From a virus, in IMG/VR virus record IMGVR_UViG_3300025655_000111, positions 1 through 37,812 of that record: a stretch of DNA of 37,812 nucleotides. One strand, 5' to 3'. This document shows, in pieces, positions 3,007 through 11,225 of the stretch; the first letter of the stretch is position 1; each line of letters starts with the position of its first letter. Made by a program: the position numbers and the translations under genes. Below the pieces are notes generated by a model. The model was not told where the DNA came from. It did not search any database and was given only the letters and a program-made list of their open reading frames with translations.

Positions 3007-3819
3007 TTAAGCTGAAATAGTGGTTCCGTAACGGATCACACTATTTGACAATTCAAAGTACATTTTATTATCAACCAAACCATTACGGTTCTTAGTAAAG
3101 TTGATAAAAGTGGCTCCACCATCACGCTCTGATTCGCGGCGCATCTCACCCATGGCGTCAACCAAGTGCTTCAATTTGTTAGAACCTGCAAATACACCAG
3201 CTTTAGTAACTTGTTGAATCAACATAAATGATGTGAATTTTTCTGACTTGTTCTCACCTTTGTTATTTTTAACACAAATATCAACCAACCAGCTCTCAGC
3301 CATTTTACGATCCCAATTATTGTCGTCACGAACACCATCAATAATTTCAGCGGCACTGTCAACCAAAACCAAATCATAACCACGGTCTAAAACCTGCTCA
3401 ATTACGTCTTTAGTGTTGTACTCAAGAAAATCTTGCATAAACAATGTTTCAATATTTCCAAATTGTGGAAAACGTTGTGTGTATTTGAACATTTGTTTTT
3501 TACCCATCTCACCTGAGATGAACAAACATTTGTTACCTTTGTTTTGGGCAGCTGAAAGAACATCCAACAAAACAGTTGTTTTACCAACACCTGGATCTCC
3601 AATCATCATAATATTAGTTGCGGCTGGAATACCACCTTCATGTGAAATCAATTTATCAACAGCCAAACCTGTTTTCATAGTGGCCATCATTTTAGGATCA
3701 ATATTCAAATTGTCCAATTTTGTAACTTTAGAAAAATCAATCAGTGATGGAACGAAAGTTGCGTTTTGAACGTTTTTGTTACTTGGACGACCTCTTTTTA
3801 CTACTTTAATGTTTTTCAT
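3007..3819 (-). CDS. RadA/RecA-like ATPase with N-terminal AT-hook-like motif
   Basis: The 270-residue protein has a RecA-fold core: Walker A GDPGVGKT (residues 74-81), CLFISGEM after it, and a Walker B-like strand YDLVLVDSAAEI. A segment SFMLIQQVTKAGVFAGSNKL resembles the RadA/Sms region that contacts DNA (KxxxxAG...L), and HLVDAM fits RadA as well. It lacks the zinc finger and the Lon-like domain of bacterial RadA. An RGRP AT-hook core sits at residues 9-12 (VKRGRPSNKN). The likely role is branch migration or loading during recombination-dependent replication; a KaiC-like ATPase is the alternative. It has its own promoter (P2) and is followed by the lipoprotein gene. It is distinct from the UvsX-like and DnaB-like proteins encoded upstream. 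Confidence 0.78.
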   Translation of the reverse strand: MKNIKVVKRGRPSNKNVQNATFVPSLIDFSKVTKLDNLNIDPKMMATMKTGLAVDKLISHEGGIPAATNIMMIGDPGVGKTTVLLDVLSAAQNKGNKCLFISGEMGKKQMFKYTQRFPQFGNIETLFMQDFLEYNTKDVIEQVLDRGYDLVLVDSAAEIIDGVRDDNNWDRKMAESWLVDICVKNNKGENKSEKFTSFMLIQQVTKAGVFAGSNKLKHLVDAMGEMRRESERDGGATFINFTKNRNGLVDNKMYFELSNSVIRYGTTISA

Positions 3820-3910: not shown

Positions 3911-5257
3911 TTAAAATATAGTTATGGTGTCATCATCATCCTCTTTTTTCTTAGTAAAATAATCTGATATTAAGGATTTTAATTTTGATATTTCTTCTTT
4001 TACTTTATGAGGATAATATATAGTATTATCTATATTTTTAAAGATTTTATTAGCTTCATTTAATTTTTGGGCAGTGTCATCATCTAAATTGGCTACTTTA
4101 GCTTCTTTTTCATCTATAACACCATCATTATTAGTATCAGCTTGTTCAAATACTTGTTTAAGTTCTTCTTCTTCAACTACACCATCACCATCTAAATCTA
4201 AATTAAATTCTTCACCTTCTAAAATTTCATCTATAGCTTCATCTGGTAGAGGATTAATCGGGTCAGGTTCTTCATAGTACAATTTTCCTGTTTTAGGATC
4301 TACAAACACAGGAATTGGTTTTTCTTCTTCTTCCCATTTTTGAAGATCTACTAAACTTGCCTCTTCTAACTCTTCATCATTTTTAAAATTATGTTCTATA
4401 TCTGAATCTTCAGGTTTATCCTGAGGGTCAGGATATAAAACATCATCTTTTTTCTTTAGTTGGGCGAAAGCAAAGTTTGCAGCAACTACTAAAGATATTG
4501 CTAAAGGATCAAACACAAATATAATAACTAATAAGAACCAGTTAATAATTCGGTCCATTTCAACACCTGTTAAGTTTGCTAAGTATTTTAGTGGTCCTAA
4601 TTCGGCTGCTACTTCTGAATTATTTTGTGTTTTAACAATTTGGGTTTCTAAACTGATTATCGAGTCATTGTACGTTTGAATTTTTGTAGTAAGTTGTTCG
4701 TCTTTTTCGATAGCCACCTCCAGCTGTTTTTCATAAGCTTTTCGGTTTGCTCCGGAAGAATAACTAATGACATTGCCATTATTATCCACATAAGACTGAG
4801 TATTGCTTCCCAATGCATTTCTTAATGTTGTTATGTTTTGTGTTAAAGATGTTTTTTCTACCTCATATTGTCCTTTAATTTTTTCAAAGGATGTCTTTTT
4901 GGTTTCTAAAAGTTTGATTTGGTTTTCTACTATACCTGCTTTGTTAGCTGTAGCTTGATAAGCAGCAGATAAAAAACCATAAATACCAGCTGAGGTGATT
5001 AAAATAAGAATAAATGTTGCTACTGTTAAATAGGTTCTTAATATTTTATTTATTTTTTCCCAATATTGATATAATAAAGAAGCTATTACTAGTTTGGCAA
5101 ATTCTAAAGAAGAAGCCATAATAATTACGGCGAAACTGGCCCCAGCAAATAATAAGCTAAGACCAGTTACACTATAAAAAGCCGCGGATGCACTTACAGA
5201 TAATGCGGAGAGTGCGATAATTAGCGGGAAAATTCTTTCTCTTATACTATTCCACAT
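3911..5257 (-). CDS. Multi-pass membrane protein with coiled coil and paired EF-hands
   Basis: The 448-residue protein has hydrophobic segments at about residues 10-30, 34-55, 75-98 and 237-265. A long polar, coiled-coil-like stretch (about 105-215) lies between the third and fourth. The C-terminal half is acidic and contains two textbook EF-hand loops: D354-E365 (DLDGDGVVEEEE) and D374-E385 (DTNNDGVIDEKE), each with the D-x-D/N-x-D-G pattern and Glu at position 12. I know no named phage family with this layout. It could sense or bind calcium at the host inner membrane, or organise replication at the membrane; both are inference. It follows the ribonucleotide reductase gene by 12 bases and has an AATATTTATC motif just upstream of its ATG. 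Confidence 0.75.
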   Translation of the reverse strand: MWNSIRERIFPLIIALSALSVSASAAFYSVTGLSLLFAGASFAVIIMASSLEFAKLVIASLLYQYWEKINKILRTYLTVATFILILITSAGIYGFLSAAYQATANKAGIVENQIKLLETKKTSFEKIKGQYEVEKTSLTQNITTLRNALGSNTQSYVDNNGNVISYSSGANRKAYEKQLEVAIEKDEQLTTKIQTYNDSIISLETQIVKTQNNSEVAAELGPLKYLANLTGVEMDRIINWFLLVIIFVFDPLAISLVVAANFAFAQLKKKDDVLYPDPQDKPEDSDIEHNFKNDEELEEASLVDLQKWEEEEKPIPVFVDPKTGKLYYEEPDPINPLPDEAIDEILEGEEFNLDLDGDGVVEEEELKQVFEQADTNNDGVIDEKEAKVANLDDDTAQKLNEANKIFKNIDNTIYYPHKVKEEISKLKSLISDYFTKKKEDDDDTITIF

Positions 5258-5260
5258 ATC

Positions 5261-5270
5261 TGATAAATAT
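5261..5270 (-). promoter_or_regulatory. ATATTTAT-type start-proximal motif, membrane protein gene
   Basis: On the minus strand ATATTTATCA lies four bases before the ATG at 5257, overlapping the end of the reductase gene. The same motif precedes most tail genes in this window. Confidence 0.35.
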
Positions 5271-7126
5271 TAAACTATTTCACAAGCTCCACCTGCACAA
5301 GCTGCTTGATCCATTAATGCTGTGTTATCAACCATCTCAATGACTTTTGATAAATCTACAGCGTGTAATGATTCTACTGCTGCCTCAAACTCTTCCTTTG
5401 TAATTGTTTCAAAAGGAGCTTGTTTGTAAGTGCCTAAATCTTCCGGTAAGAAAGATAAAGCTGTAAAATATTCTTTATTTTCATACAACCACTCACCTAC
5501 TGTATCCCATTCATCTTGTTTAATAGTTACTGTAGCTGATACATTATGCATATTAGAACCTCTTCTATGACCTGGTTTAATCCAATTTTTATTAATTGTT
5601 TTAATACGTTCTAATAAGTCCATAGCTGATTCTTTACGTGTGATTGCATTTTCAGGAGCACGTTGTGGTACTGATACTACTGATTGGATTTCAGGTTTGA
5701 AGAAATCATCTTCTAACATTTCAGGATGGTAAACGGCAAGATATTGATACAATGCTTCATTTTTACCTAAACGAATACGACGCATGTAATAATCATCATG
5801 CCAAGCATGAATACCTGAACTTGTACCTAATACTAATGAAGTGGTACCTGATGGTTTAACTGTAGTAACACGAGCTGCTTTATTAATACCTAAAATTTCA
5901 GCTACACGGGCGTTTTCTTCAACTGCTGCTTTAGCCGCTTCTTTCATATTGAAGTTAAAAATAGCTCCTGAAGCGATACCTGTCATTCCAATACCTAACA
6001 ATGCTTCTTTTTCAGTTGTTTTTCTCCAAATATCTCTTAAATAATGGAAGTCAGTATATGAGGCTTGTAATGTGCCAATAAAAGCTGCTGCTTTAGCTCT
6101 TGCATTATATTCTTCTTGTGAGTCAATATCTGAGGCATTGATTTCACATAAGTTACAAAATTGGTTTGGTTTCAAATTAATTTCAGCACATGGATTAGTA
6201 CCCGCGTCTTTATCATTTGTAAATAAGAATCCTGGTTCTCCGCTATTAGATGCCTCAATTTTCTTCCACAAATCCAAAAATGTTTCTTTATCAATTTTAC
6301 TACGTAACAACACAGCTGAGTTATTTGATCTTCCTCGTTGAGGATTATTTTCCCACCAGTTCCCAAATTTACAAGTTAACATATCCTGGTCATCTAAATT
6401 AAATAATGAGATCAAAGCAGCTCTACGAATACCTCCAGACAATACAGCGTCAGCTAAGTGACAAATAATATCATGGGCTTCCAAAGTTGTTAATTTTTCA
6501 CCATCTTGTTTACGGTCCAAAATAGCTTGTACATGTACTAAAGCAATTTTCAATGGCTCAGGACCCGGTGCTTTACCTCCAACAGTAATAAGTGAGGCAC
6601 CTTTTGGACGAATGTCTCTAAAATCAAATAATGGACCTGTTGAAGTATAACCAAAATAAGCTTTGGTCAACATACGAACAGCATCAGCCCAACCTTCAAT
6701 TGAATCACCTACTAGATAACGTTTCCACTTAAGTGGTTTTCTTACTTCAGGTAATTTTTCTACATGGTGAGTTTGGACTGAATATCCTACTCCACATCCT
6801 GAAAGTAGCAAAAACATAATTTCAGAAAAAGCTCTGTAATCATCAATAGGTAAATAGGAACAGTTAAAAATACGGGCATTGTTTATTTCGATAGGTTTGC
6901 CAGCAAATTGCATTGATCGCATAGATGGCAATACCTTTTTATCATAAACATACTTGTAAGCGGACTCGATTTCTTCAGCTAATTGAGGAAATCTTTCAAT
7001 GTGCATCTCTTTGTTTCGGGTAACTAACTCACTCCAAGTCTCACGTCTGTTTTTTTCAGGGACGTATTTTGCATACTTAAGGTGGGTAGTGATTTCCGAC
7101 AAAATTTGTGATTCTGTTGTTAACAT
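5270..7126 (-). CDS. nrdJ: Adenosylcobalamin-dependent class II ribonucleotide reductase
   Basis: At 618 residues this is a monomeric class II enzyme, slightly shorter than the Lactobacillus-type triphosphate reductase. Visible landmarks are FNCSYLP (C89, first redox Cys), NPCAEINL (C313, thiyl-radical Cys, with E315), C324 eleven residues later (second redox Cys), VKPSGTTS (substrate-binding loop) and the C-terminal swinging pair C610/C615 in CAGGACEIV. The enzyme makes deoxyribonucleotides using vitamin B12 and needs no oxygen, no NrdB subunit and no activase. It sits 15 bases after the helicase gene in the replication operon, so it supplies precursors for phage DNA synthesis. All catalytic cysteines appear intact. 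A large insertion-free N-terminal region suggests a minimal allosteric domain, but I cannot confirm that from sequence alone. Confidence 0.92.
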   Translation of the reverse strand: MLTTESQILSEITTHLKYAKYVPEKNRRETWSELVTRNKEMHIERFPQLAEEIESAYKYVYDKKVLPSMRSMQFAGKPIEINNARIFNCSYLPIDDYRAFSEIMFLLLSGCGVGYSVQTHHVEKLPEVRKPLKWKRYLVGDSIEGWADAVRMLTKAYFGYTSTGPLFDFRDIRPKGASLITVGGKAPGPEPLKIALVHVQAILDRKQDGEKLTTLEAHDIICHLADAVLSGGIRRAALISLFNLDDQDMLTCKFGNWWENNPQRGRSNNSAVLLRSKIDKETFLDLWKKIEASNSGEPGFLFTNDKDAGTNPCAEINLKPNQFCNLCEINASDIDSQEEYNARAKAAAFIGTLQASYTDFHYLRDIWRKTTEKEALLGIGMTGIASGAIFNFNMKEAAKAAVEENARVAEILGINKAARVTTVKPSGTTSLVLGTSSGIHAWHDDYYMRRIRLGKNEALYQYLAVYHPEMLEDDFFKPEIQSVVSVPQRAPENAITRKESAMDLLERIKTINKNWIKPGHRRGSNMHNVSATVTIKQDEWDTVGEWLYENKEYFTALSFLPEDLGTYKQAPFETITKEEFEAAVESLHAVDLSKVIEMVDNTALMDQAACAGGACEIV

Positions 7127-10679: not shown

Positions 10680-11225
10680 TTAAAATGGCAAGTCATCATC
10701 TTCCTCATCAAACAAAGAATCAAATTTTTCTGCTTTGCTTGTTTTAGGAGCAGTTGGAGTTTTAAGAGTGTAATTTTTAGTAGAAGAAACTACTTCAGCT
10801 TCTGGTTCGTTTTCATCATCAATGATGTCTCCTTCTTCTGGTTCATCAGGTGACAACCATTTCTGTAGAGCATCTTTCATTTCATCATAAGAATACTTTT
10901 TAAATACATCTACTGGTTTTGGTTGATTCTCTAACCAGCTTTGAACCTCTTCAGCATTAGCACTCAATGGAGTTTCTTTAACCTTAGGCATAATGGTTGT
11001 TTTGTTGTAGTTAGTGCCTGTAACTTCAGGTCCTACTGTAGTCAAAGCAATATCACGACCAGTTGCTACATCAGTGAAATCACCAATGTCTTCATTATCT
11101 GCCAAGTTCAAGAAATCCATATACAACTCCTTACCGAATTGCCACAATTTAACTCCTTCTGCTTCTTCACCACGAACAATAACAGGAGCGAAAATACGCA
11201 TTTTAGCATCCAACTTTTTAGCCAA
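10680..11225 (-). CDS. gp32-like single-stranded DNA-binding protein, C-terminal part downstream of an in-frame stop
   Basis: This is the same reading frame as the ORF at 11259-11510; only the TAA at 11259-11261 separates them. The first usable start after the stop is the TTG at 11225. Protein-coding sequence continues between the stop and that TTG (LRGTNDKENWR), so the split is not a natural gene boundary. The part reads WRLAKKLDAKMRIFAPVIVR, then GVKLWQFGKELY, as in the core of T4-like SSBs. A long acidic linker follows, and the tail FDSLFDEEDDDLPF is typical of an SSB C-terminus that recruits replication proteins. A full-length protein of about 276 residues would need readthrough, suppression or a corrected base. 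Confidence 0.75.
   Translation of the reverse strand: MAKKLDAKMRIFAPVIVRGEEAEGVKLWQFGKELYMDFLNLADNEDIGDFTDVATGRDIALTTVGPEVTGTNYNKTTIMPKVKETPLSANAEEVQSWLENQPKPVDVFKKYSYDEMKDALQKWLSPDEPEEGDIIDDENEPEAEVVSSTKNYTLKTPTAPKTSKAEKFDSLFDEEDDDLPF

Follow-up and report, generated by a model that had tools for sequence, protein, structure and literature searches.

The DNA analysed here, called the window throughout, comes from a marine phage and makes up a viral record 37,812 bases long. A gene for a membrane protein of 448 amino acids lies on its reverse strand, between a ribonucleotide reductase gene and a gene for a RecA-superfamily ATPase (Table 1). The sequence-only reading had placed this gene in a replication operon, between the reductase and a RadA-like gene. 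Both neighbours were confirmed, the label "RadA-like" being only approximate.

Several other genes of the window deserve mention. The gene at 715-1497 matches a profile that is also hit (4.8e-72) by a gene of Flavobacterium phage vB_FspM_immuto_2-6A (immuto in the following) annotated as the DNA-guanine transglycosylase DpdA. Since several relatives have QueC-like genes nearby as well, the phage may carry 7-deazaguanine-modified DNA. A 150-aa protein encoded at 2537-2989 looks coiled-coil-like by eye and has a lipobox-like LFSC near its N-terminus, so that it could be an outer-membrane lipoprotein; a counterpart adjoins the gene at the related locus L009 and is absent from the ORF list of L010. 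Between 28139 and 35353, a run of nucleotidyltransferase-, glycosyltransferase-, methyltransferase- and acetyltransferase-like genes was recognised by eye.

Table 1 Features of the membrane-protein gene and its immediate neighbours, in window positions.
Feature	Position	Strand	Basis
RecA-superfamily ATPase, downstream of the membrane-protein gene	3007..3819	-	Pfam/profile
Whole gene, membrane protein, 448 aa, ATG start	3911..5257	-	ORF list and translation
Acidic-aromatic C-terminal tip DDDDTITIF	3914..3940	-	Sequence; pattern count in relatives
Acidic tail, residues 271-448, 55 D/E versus 19 K/R, predicted cytoplasmic	3914..4447	-	Composition, charge bias
EF-hand loop 2, DTNNDGVIDEKE, residues 374-385	4103..4138	-	Pfam, sequence
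Inter-loop stretch LKQVFEQA, 8 residues, helical in the model	4139..4162	-	Sequence, AlphaFold2
EF-hand loop 1, DLDGDGVVEEEE, residues 354-365	4163..4198	-	Pfam, sequence
Membrane helix 4, residues about 237-265; D250, P251 each identical in 110/110	4463..4549	-	Hydropathy, alignment
Coiled-coil hairpin with beta-hairpin tip, residues 99-215, predicted periplasmic	4613..4963	-	Model (block pLDDT 89-98), charge bias
Membrane helix 3, residues about 75-98; T88, S89 each identical in 110/110	4964..5035	-	Hydropathy, alignment
Membrane helix 2, residues about 39-64; E52, K55 each identical in 110/110	5066..5143	-	Hydropathy, alignment
Membrane helix 1, residues about 10-34	5156..5230	-	Hydropathy, AlphaFold2 model
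Ribonucleotide reductase, 12 bases upstream of the membrane-protein gene	5270..7126	-	Pfam/profile

The hydropathy profile of the protein peaks in four regions. The AlphaFold2 model of all 448 residues (110 sequences; mean pLDDT 83.4, pTM 0.57) has helices at residues 2-36, 38-64, 71-150, 169-212, 215-230 and 234-273, followed by short helices in the tail, and strands at 154-157 and 163-166. Membrane helix 3 continues in this model into the long coiled-coil hairpin, after which comes membrane helix 4. Confidence in the tail is low at residues 281-350 and reaches block pLDDT values of 73 (351-360) and 83-92 (361-410), marking an ordered EF-hand region. The positive-charge bias favours an N-in/C-in orientation in 109 of 110 aligned members and the opposite one in a single member; the hairpin is therefore predicted to be periplasmic and the EF-hand tail cytoplasmic. 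Taken together, we strongly predict four membrane helices with both termini in the cytoplasm, a periplasmic coiled-coil hairpin and a cytoplasmic tail with an exchangeable middle module. The sequence-only reading had described four membrane segments, a long coiled coil and an acidic tail with two loops, all borne out by hydropathy, model and loop positions, and the topology prediction it proposed as a check is the charge-bias result just given.

The core of this protein represents a very large family without a name, unstudied as far as the searched literature shows, and the tail loops are a lineage-specific module of it rather than a family trait. We confirmed the family core at 591 or more places in viral contigs and found 77 family loci on contigs of bacterial and archaeal genomes, including Bdellovibrionales and Opitutales. 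By tblastn, 13 phage records matched parts of residues 31-300, none spanning 80% of the protein. After removal of truncated, partial and identical sequences from 262 profile hits, 220 distinct complete members were retained. Neighbourhoods were counted for 187 of these (excluding proteins >600 aa) or for 156 phage-type members (also excluding L034-L105, the loci on contigs of bacterial and archaeal genomes), and relatedness groups were formed by single linkage at 60% core identity. A further alignment (A2) comprised the window protein and 109 rows hand-picked from 125 listed. Among the positions invariant in all 110 rows are S29, G32, F37, L51, E52, K55, T88, S89, G91, G94, G221, D250 and P251, and those that are polar and lie within membrane helices may mark a functional site that is buried.

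The closest comparison with an isolated phage was provided by KNV73_gp185 of immuto (YP_010114498.1), whose core is 51.5% identical over residues 31-268. It shares the acidic tail and a comparable C-terminal end (NNENKITYL) and is encoded downstream of an endolysin and a holin gene; unlike the window protein, it has no EF-hand loop and its gene lies outside the replication cluster. No name was assigned to the family core at a convincing score in Pfam, PHROGs or NCBIfam. Weak core matches below the cut-off occurred, for example to Tetraspanin in 10 of 23 members (best 0.00054). DUF4407 (PF14362), a family of similar layout, is neither one of the seven Pfam entries retrieved with the protein nor among the best 25 of 97 for the 23-member set. 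A fold search of the full model against the PDB gave 644 matches, none at E ≤ 0.001 (best 0.043, long-helix proteins), and the eight BFVD matches at E ≤ 0.001 were all unnamed or uncharacterised. Among the 50 matches listed by VIA-align, mostly coiled coils or long helices, Z was 9.7-11.5, a range common for helical models, and the alignments spanned mainly residues 13-256, barely covering the tail. Ten long or divergent members (428-977 aa) had no Pfam match over the cut-off, and hence no fused domain that would name a function. Relatives from Opitutales and Verrucomicrobia of about 875-1107 aa (e.g., L070:4941-7739) carry an additional C-terminal part, and the coiled coil that separates helices 3 and 4 is much longer in them; those scanned lacked a Pfam match above the cut-off.

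Both 12-residue loops in the tail possess ligands at positions 1, 3, 5, 9 and 12 and a glycine at position 6. The Pfam models EF-hand_5 (PF13202; 31.5 bits, cut-off 25.9) and EF-hand_1 (PF00036; 26.9 bits, cut-off 25.4) were passed, and EF-hand_6 scored just under its threshold (24.8 bits, cut-off 25). When the 178-aa tail was shuffled 20,000 times, at least one loop arose 76 times and two loops not once. A paired helix-loop-helix domain with the usual spacing was not recovered, with the paired-domain model EF-hand_7 scoring 21.8 bits against a cut-off of 30 and a gap of 8 residues between the loops. The PROSITE EF-hand pattern requires a hydrophobic residue at position 13; loop 2 has alanine there, and only loop 1 fits the pattern. 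The claim of two perfect EF-hand loops thus stands for the ligands, complete in both, and has to be qualified for the alanine and the short gap. Two loops occur in just three of the 220 members, and the starts of the two loops are always 20 residues apart. Complete as each loop is, they do not form a classical pair, with 8 residues in between compared with a typical gap of about 25.

Matches of the loops to solved structures comprised 24 distinct sequences at E ≤ 0.01, among them hippocalcin, troponin C and centrin. The aligned range covered both loops in three of the 24: 6mi5 (E 0.008) and 8fns, both lanmodulin, and 9d8s, a calmodulin-domain kinase. In the available text of PMC10232371, the gap between typical Ca2+ EF-hands is given as about 25 residues, and lanmodulin is characterised by four EF-hands, neighbours 12-13 residues apart and proline at position 2 of at least one. 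The tight spacing of the phage loops is thus reminiscent of lanmodulin (PMC10232371, as far as available). In contrast, the phage protein is anchored in the membrane, has two loops instead of four, 8 residues apart, and carries Leu and Thr, not Pro, at position 2, which places it outside lanmodulin as delimited by these hallmarks. Among viruses, an EF-hand gene is mentioned in the accessible part of an archaeal virus-host study (PMC9694453); the papers listed on calcium binding and holins in phages dealt mainly with endolysins.

Modelled alone, the tail reached a pLDDT of 65.3 (seven sequences). A Foldseek search with this model returned nothing at E ≤ 0.001. Its 19 matches at E ≤ 10 include 14 titled as EF-hand proteins or their complexes and are suggestive only. 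Searching the phage collection with the tail by tblastn yielded no match at E ≤ 0.1. From the ligand sets, the tail loops are predicted to bind Ca2+.

Binding need not mean sensing. An EF loop is present in 58 of the 220 members, a set in which such proteins are over-represented because one of the searches used an EF-bearing query, and 55 of these 58 have a single loop. This lone loop as the commonest form would suit a structural clip or a surface for docking, either permanently loaded with Ca2+ or dockerin-like. In the AlphaFold2 model, loop 1 has no helix immediately before it, the helix at 339-345 being followed by coil up to residue 362. Layouts of a loop plus an exit helix are dockerin-like. 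The resting cytoplasm is, however, low in free Ca2+, and constant loading at the predicted cytoplasmic site would be unexpected unless affinity is high. We regard such a purely structural role as unlikely.

The loop was found after residue 300 in all 58 loop-bearing members, and its distribution is patchy. In the alignment of 110 members the strict loop is present in 16 and absent in 94. On the corresponding tree this distribution needs 10 changes, at least 8 of which are forced by well-supported branches. When a single-loop member served as query, the resulting set of 56 comprised 44 members with an intact loop and 12 with no trace of one, even under a relaxed definition; another short segment occupies the loop position in several of these 12. 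Between the window and L010, 261 of 270 core positions are identical versus 18 of 40 in the EF region, and both proteins keep two complete ligand sets. Because presence is all or none in the 56-member set and the pairs are complete despite the 18/40 identity, the loops do not appear to be decaying. Beyond the profile match, 11 of 169 tails contain a loop, compared with a shuffled mean of 0.29 and maximum of 3, a further five loops having been booked as core since the match extended into the tail. Conservation scores inside the loop are partly circular, with members picked by motif, and were excluded as evidence. The middle of the tail is predicted to be an exchangeable unit, a tight tandem here, a single loop in many relatives and something else in others. 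Homologues lacking the EF-hand residues, which the sequence-only reading had named as speaking against it by showing that these residues are not conserved, do on their face exist (94 of 110), but the loss is all or none (44 versus 12 of 56). Outside the family, just 5 of 2162 neighbour ORFs contain an EF-loop motif. Loops of the DKNxNGxxDxxD type were seen in neighbour proteins at L180:4610-5833 (two such loops), L182:9344-10633, L177:9084-10790 and L156:8885-10216; such neighbours lie about 2.7-3 kb downstream.

A conserved core with a fast-changing, module-swapping tail, as in the comparison with L010, would also fit a protein for superinfection exclusion or envelope protection, in which the core blocks or alters DNA entry of a second phage, an effect that the tail modules would adjust or diversify in an arms race. 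The integral membrane location and the early-gene neighbourhood in the window are consistent with it. Against it, no named exclusion protein was similar at a convincing score in Pfam, PHROGs and NCBIfam, and the variable part is predicted to be cytoplasmic, not the expected site of direct contact with an incoming phage. This role appears improbable to us.

A second element of the family is the motif R-x4-GQNGNxGxHY, present in 60 of 220 members, 38 of which also have an EF loop, with a gap of three residues between motif and loop in 27 of the 38. It is absent from the window. Scanning viral contigs for GQNGNxGxHY yielded at least 80 ORFs, at least 64 of them outside the family. All 80 recovered ORFs have arginine at position -5, and positions -4 to -1 are mostly [MI], [DN], [IV] and I, none of which was demanded by the pattern. 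After motif masking, the 64 non-family carriers (a minimum number) fell into 35 groups without detected similarity. The resulting 15-residue motif, R[MIV][DN]x[IV]GQNGNxGxHY, occurs N-terminally, in the middle or C-terminally on unrelated phage proteins; carriers are encoded at L118:7232-7504, L132:6586-6876 and loci L265-L344, and some look, by eye, DUF3310-like or MazG-like. One carrier, a 294-aa ORF at L282 with about four membrane segments by eye and the motif in its tail, was missed by the family profile. With one motif copy as query and the limit set loosely at E 10, tblastn matched 23 phage records, and a literature search with three spellings of the motif gave no match. Possibly, the motif is a shared docking or processing tag.

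The extreme C-terminus is a third recurrent element. A loose acidic-aromatic pattern fits 88 of 156 phage-type members, many relatives ending in DDLTITY, DETKTY and the like. The single-stranded DNA-binding protein (SSB) of the window (10680-11225) ends in EEDDDLPF, and a shared partner pocket for both tips is conceivable. This resemblance to the tip DDDDTITIF would agree with the protein serving as a membrane anchor for replication or nucleotide-supply proteins, its tipped cytoplasmic tail holding replisome partners, although it extends over few residues and acidic tips are widespread. Gene order provides further points in favour: the window and L009-L013 have ribonucleotide reductase and helicase genes ahead of the membrane-protein gene, in phage XacN1 it lies among RecA-like, helicase and clamp-loader genes, and in SCTP-2 it adjoins a topoisomerase II gene, in both cases among replication rather than lysis genes.

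Neighbourhoods were compared across the family, with six window proteins (helicase, exonuclease, UvsX-like, SSB, reductase and RecA-like ATPase) as queries for replication genes. The search for lysis genes used eight proteins encoded at these loci and two profiles, so that other types of lysis gene would escape. A replication-type gene lies within 5 kb in 6 of 31 loci of the window's group and in 0 of 68 of the largest group, whereas a lysis gene does so in 24/31 and 57/68 and lies within 600 bp in 17/31 and 53/68, respectively, related members within groups not being independent. Across groups, the two types are equally frequent, each being found within 5 kb in 5 of 19 groups. These counts make an anchor for the replication machinery quite improbable and favour a role in lysis close to the window, less so at the level of groups. 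Accordingly, the position in the window, which recurs in L009-L012 with the neighbouring genes included, is a minority arrangement in its own group. The window and L009-L013, where the gene adjoins replication genes and no recognised lysis gene was found within 5 kb of L009-L013, speak against the lysis reading.

When the 2162 neighbour ORFs were clustered and examples named, the recurrent order was endolysin, holin, membrane-protein gene. A holin-like ORF adjoins the gene in many relatives (one example matched Phage_holin_4_1 at 22.9 bits, cut-off 22.2), preceded by an endolysin-like ORF (in one example matching the endolysin family phrog_33083 at 1.4e-18, the best PHROG being phrog_3000 of unknown function). 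The lysis enzyme varies, with PG_binding_1 plus GH19 at L107 and Peptidase_M15_3 at L132, and the pair of holin and membrane-protein gene is constant. At L107, which belongs to the six-row clade of the window (support 100/99), the gene begins 37 bases after the holin; no homologue of this holin was found in 9 of 10 records searched, which may be fragments, the sole hit being that of L107 itself. In immuto, endolysin and holin lie 1.8-2.8 kb upstream of the gene, and in phage Mosig a glucosaminidase gene is located directly upstream. In isolated flavophages, proteins with 1-4 membrane segments were reported near lysins and a GH19 protein was proposed as endolysin (PMC8776804, available text). 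These lysis regions are alike in having membrane proteins close to lysins; coiled-coil hairpins and EF-hands are absent from the descriptions in the portion of PMC8776804 at hand.

Farther from the window the association weakens. Among the genome-contig loci L034-L105, only 1 of 31 complete members of ≤600 aa was near a sought lysis gene, a result that may point to a broader task for the core itself, and eight genome-contig loci inspected by eye shared no neighbourhood function. At the level of clusters, EF loops and lysis genes coincide in 9/13 versus 5/84, an association confounded by shared ancestry. Close to the window the lysis link is thus strong, but over the family as a whole it is thin.

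The best reading of the product is an inner-membrane protein of the infected cell. The sequence-only reading had likewise favoured infected-cell physiology over virion structure, which agrees with a protein that is integral to the membrane and encoded next to genes for replication or lysis; the replication operon from which it had argued carries little weight, given lysis genes in 24 of 31 loci compared with replication genes in 6 of 31. A virion protein was set aside, as the protein is integral to the membrane and no annotated structural gene adjoins it in immuto, Mosig, XacN1 or SCTP-2. Most neighbours there are hypothetical, and one unnamed cluster (22 loci) looked baseplate-like by eye. 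Nor is it a recognisable holin: no holin family, be it PF05105 or a PHROG lysis family, was among the seven Pfam (E ≤ 5) or three PHROG (E ≤ 1) families listed for the protein, and phrog_1296, annotated as holin, touched 8 of 23 members (best 0.0016). Spanins have a single N-terminal membrane helix, or are lipoproteins, with a periplasmic coiled coil; the four membrane helices led us to reject this identity, four "Rz-like spanin" PHROGs touching 2-3 of 23 members each (best 0.005). Near many members there is a separate 94-aa ORF whose product, judged by eye, has a single membrane segment and ends in a coiled-coil-like part. Overall, the core showed no relation to a known holin, antiholin or spanin at a convincing score, which counts against the lysis reading, and for an antiholin or lysis regulator the support is gene adjacency.

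We tentatively propose, with a probability of roughly 0.4, that the protein either partners the holin or regulates lysis, and that its cytoplasmic tail responds to Ca2+. At the cytoplasmic membrane it would cooperate with the holin, whether as its partner or by setting the time of lysis, and its periplasmic hairpin might touch the holin or the wall. Ca2+ entering the cytoplasm, e.g., through a leaky membrane, would change the conformation or partner of the tail and thereby adjust how holin assembly leads on to lysis. That Ca2+ loops sense Ca2+, and that a neighbour of a holin acts on lysis, is what we infer here. A more specific version, a calcium-gated lysis clock, is a long shot: the EF tail would read Ca2+ leaking in at membrane failure or upon attack by a second phage and advance or hold lysis, the tail being a socket for different sensor modules.

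The family is abundant in viral contigs (at least 591 places), yet nameless in Pfam, PHROGs and NCBIfam at a convincing score. If the tail senses Ca2+ beside the holin, these phages would gain a direct read-out of membrane integrity, and this would open a testable route to lysis timing in phages of marine flavobacteria.
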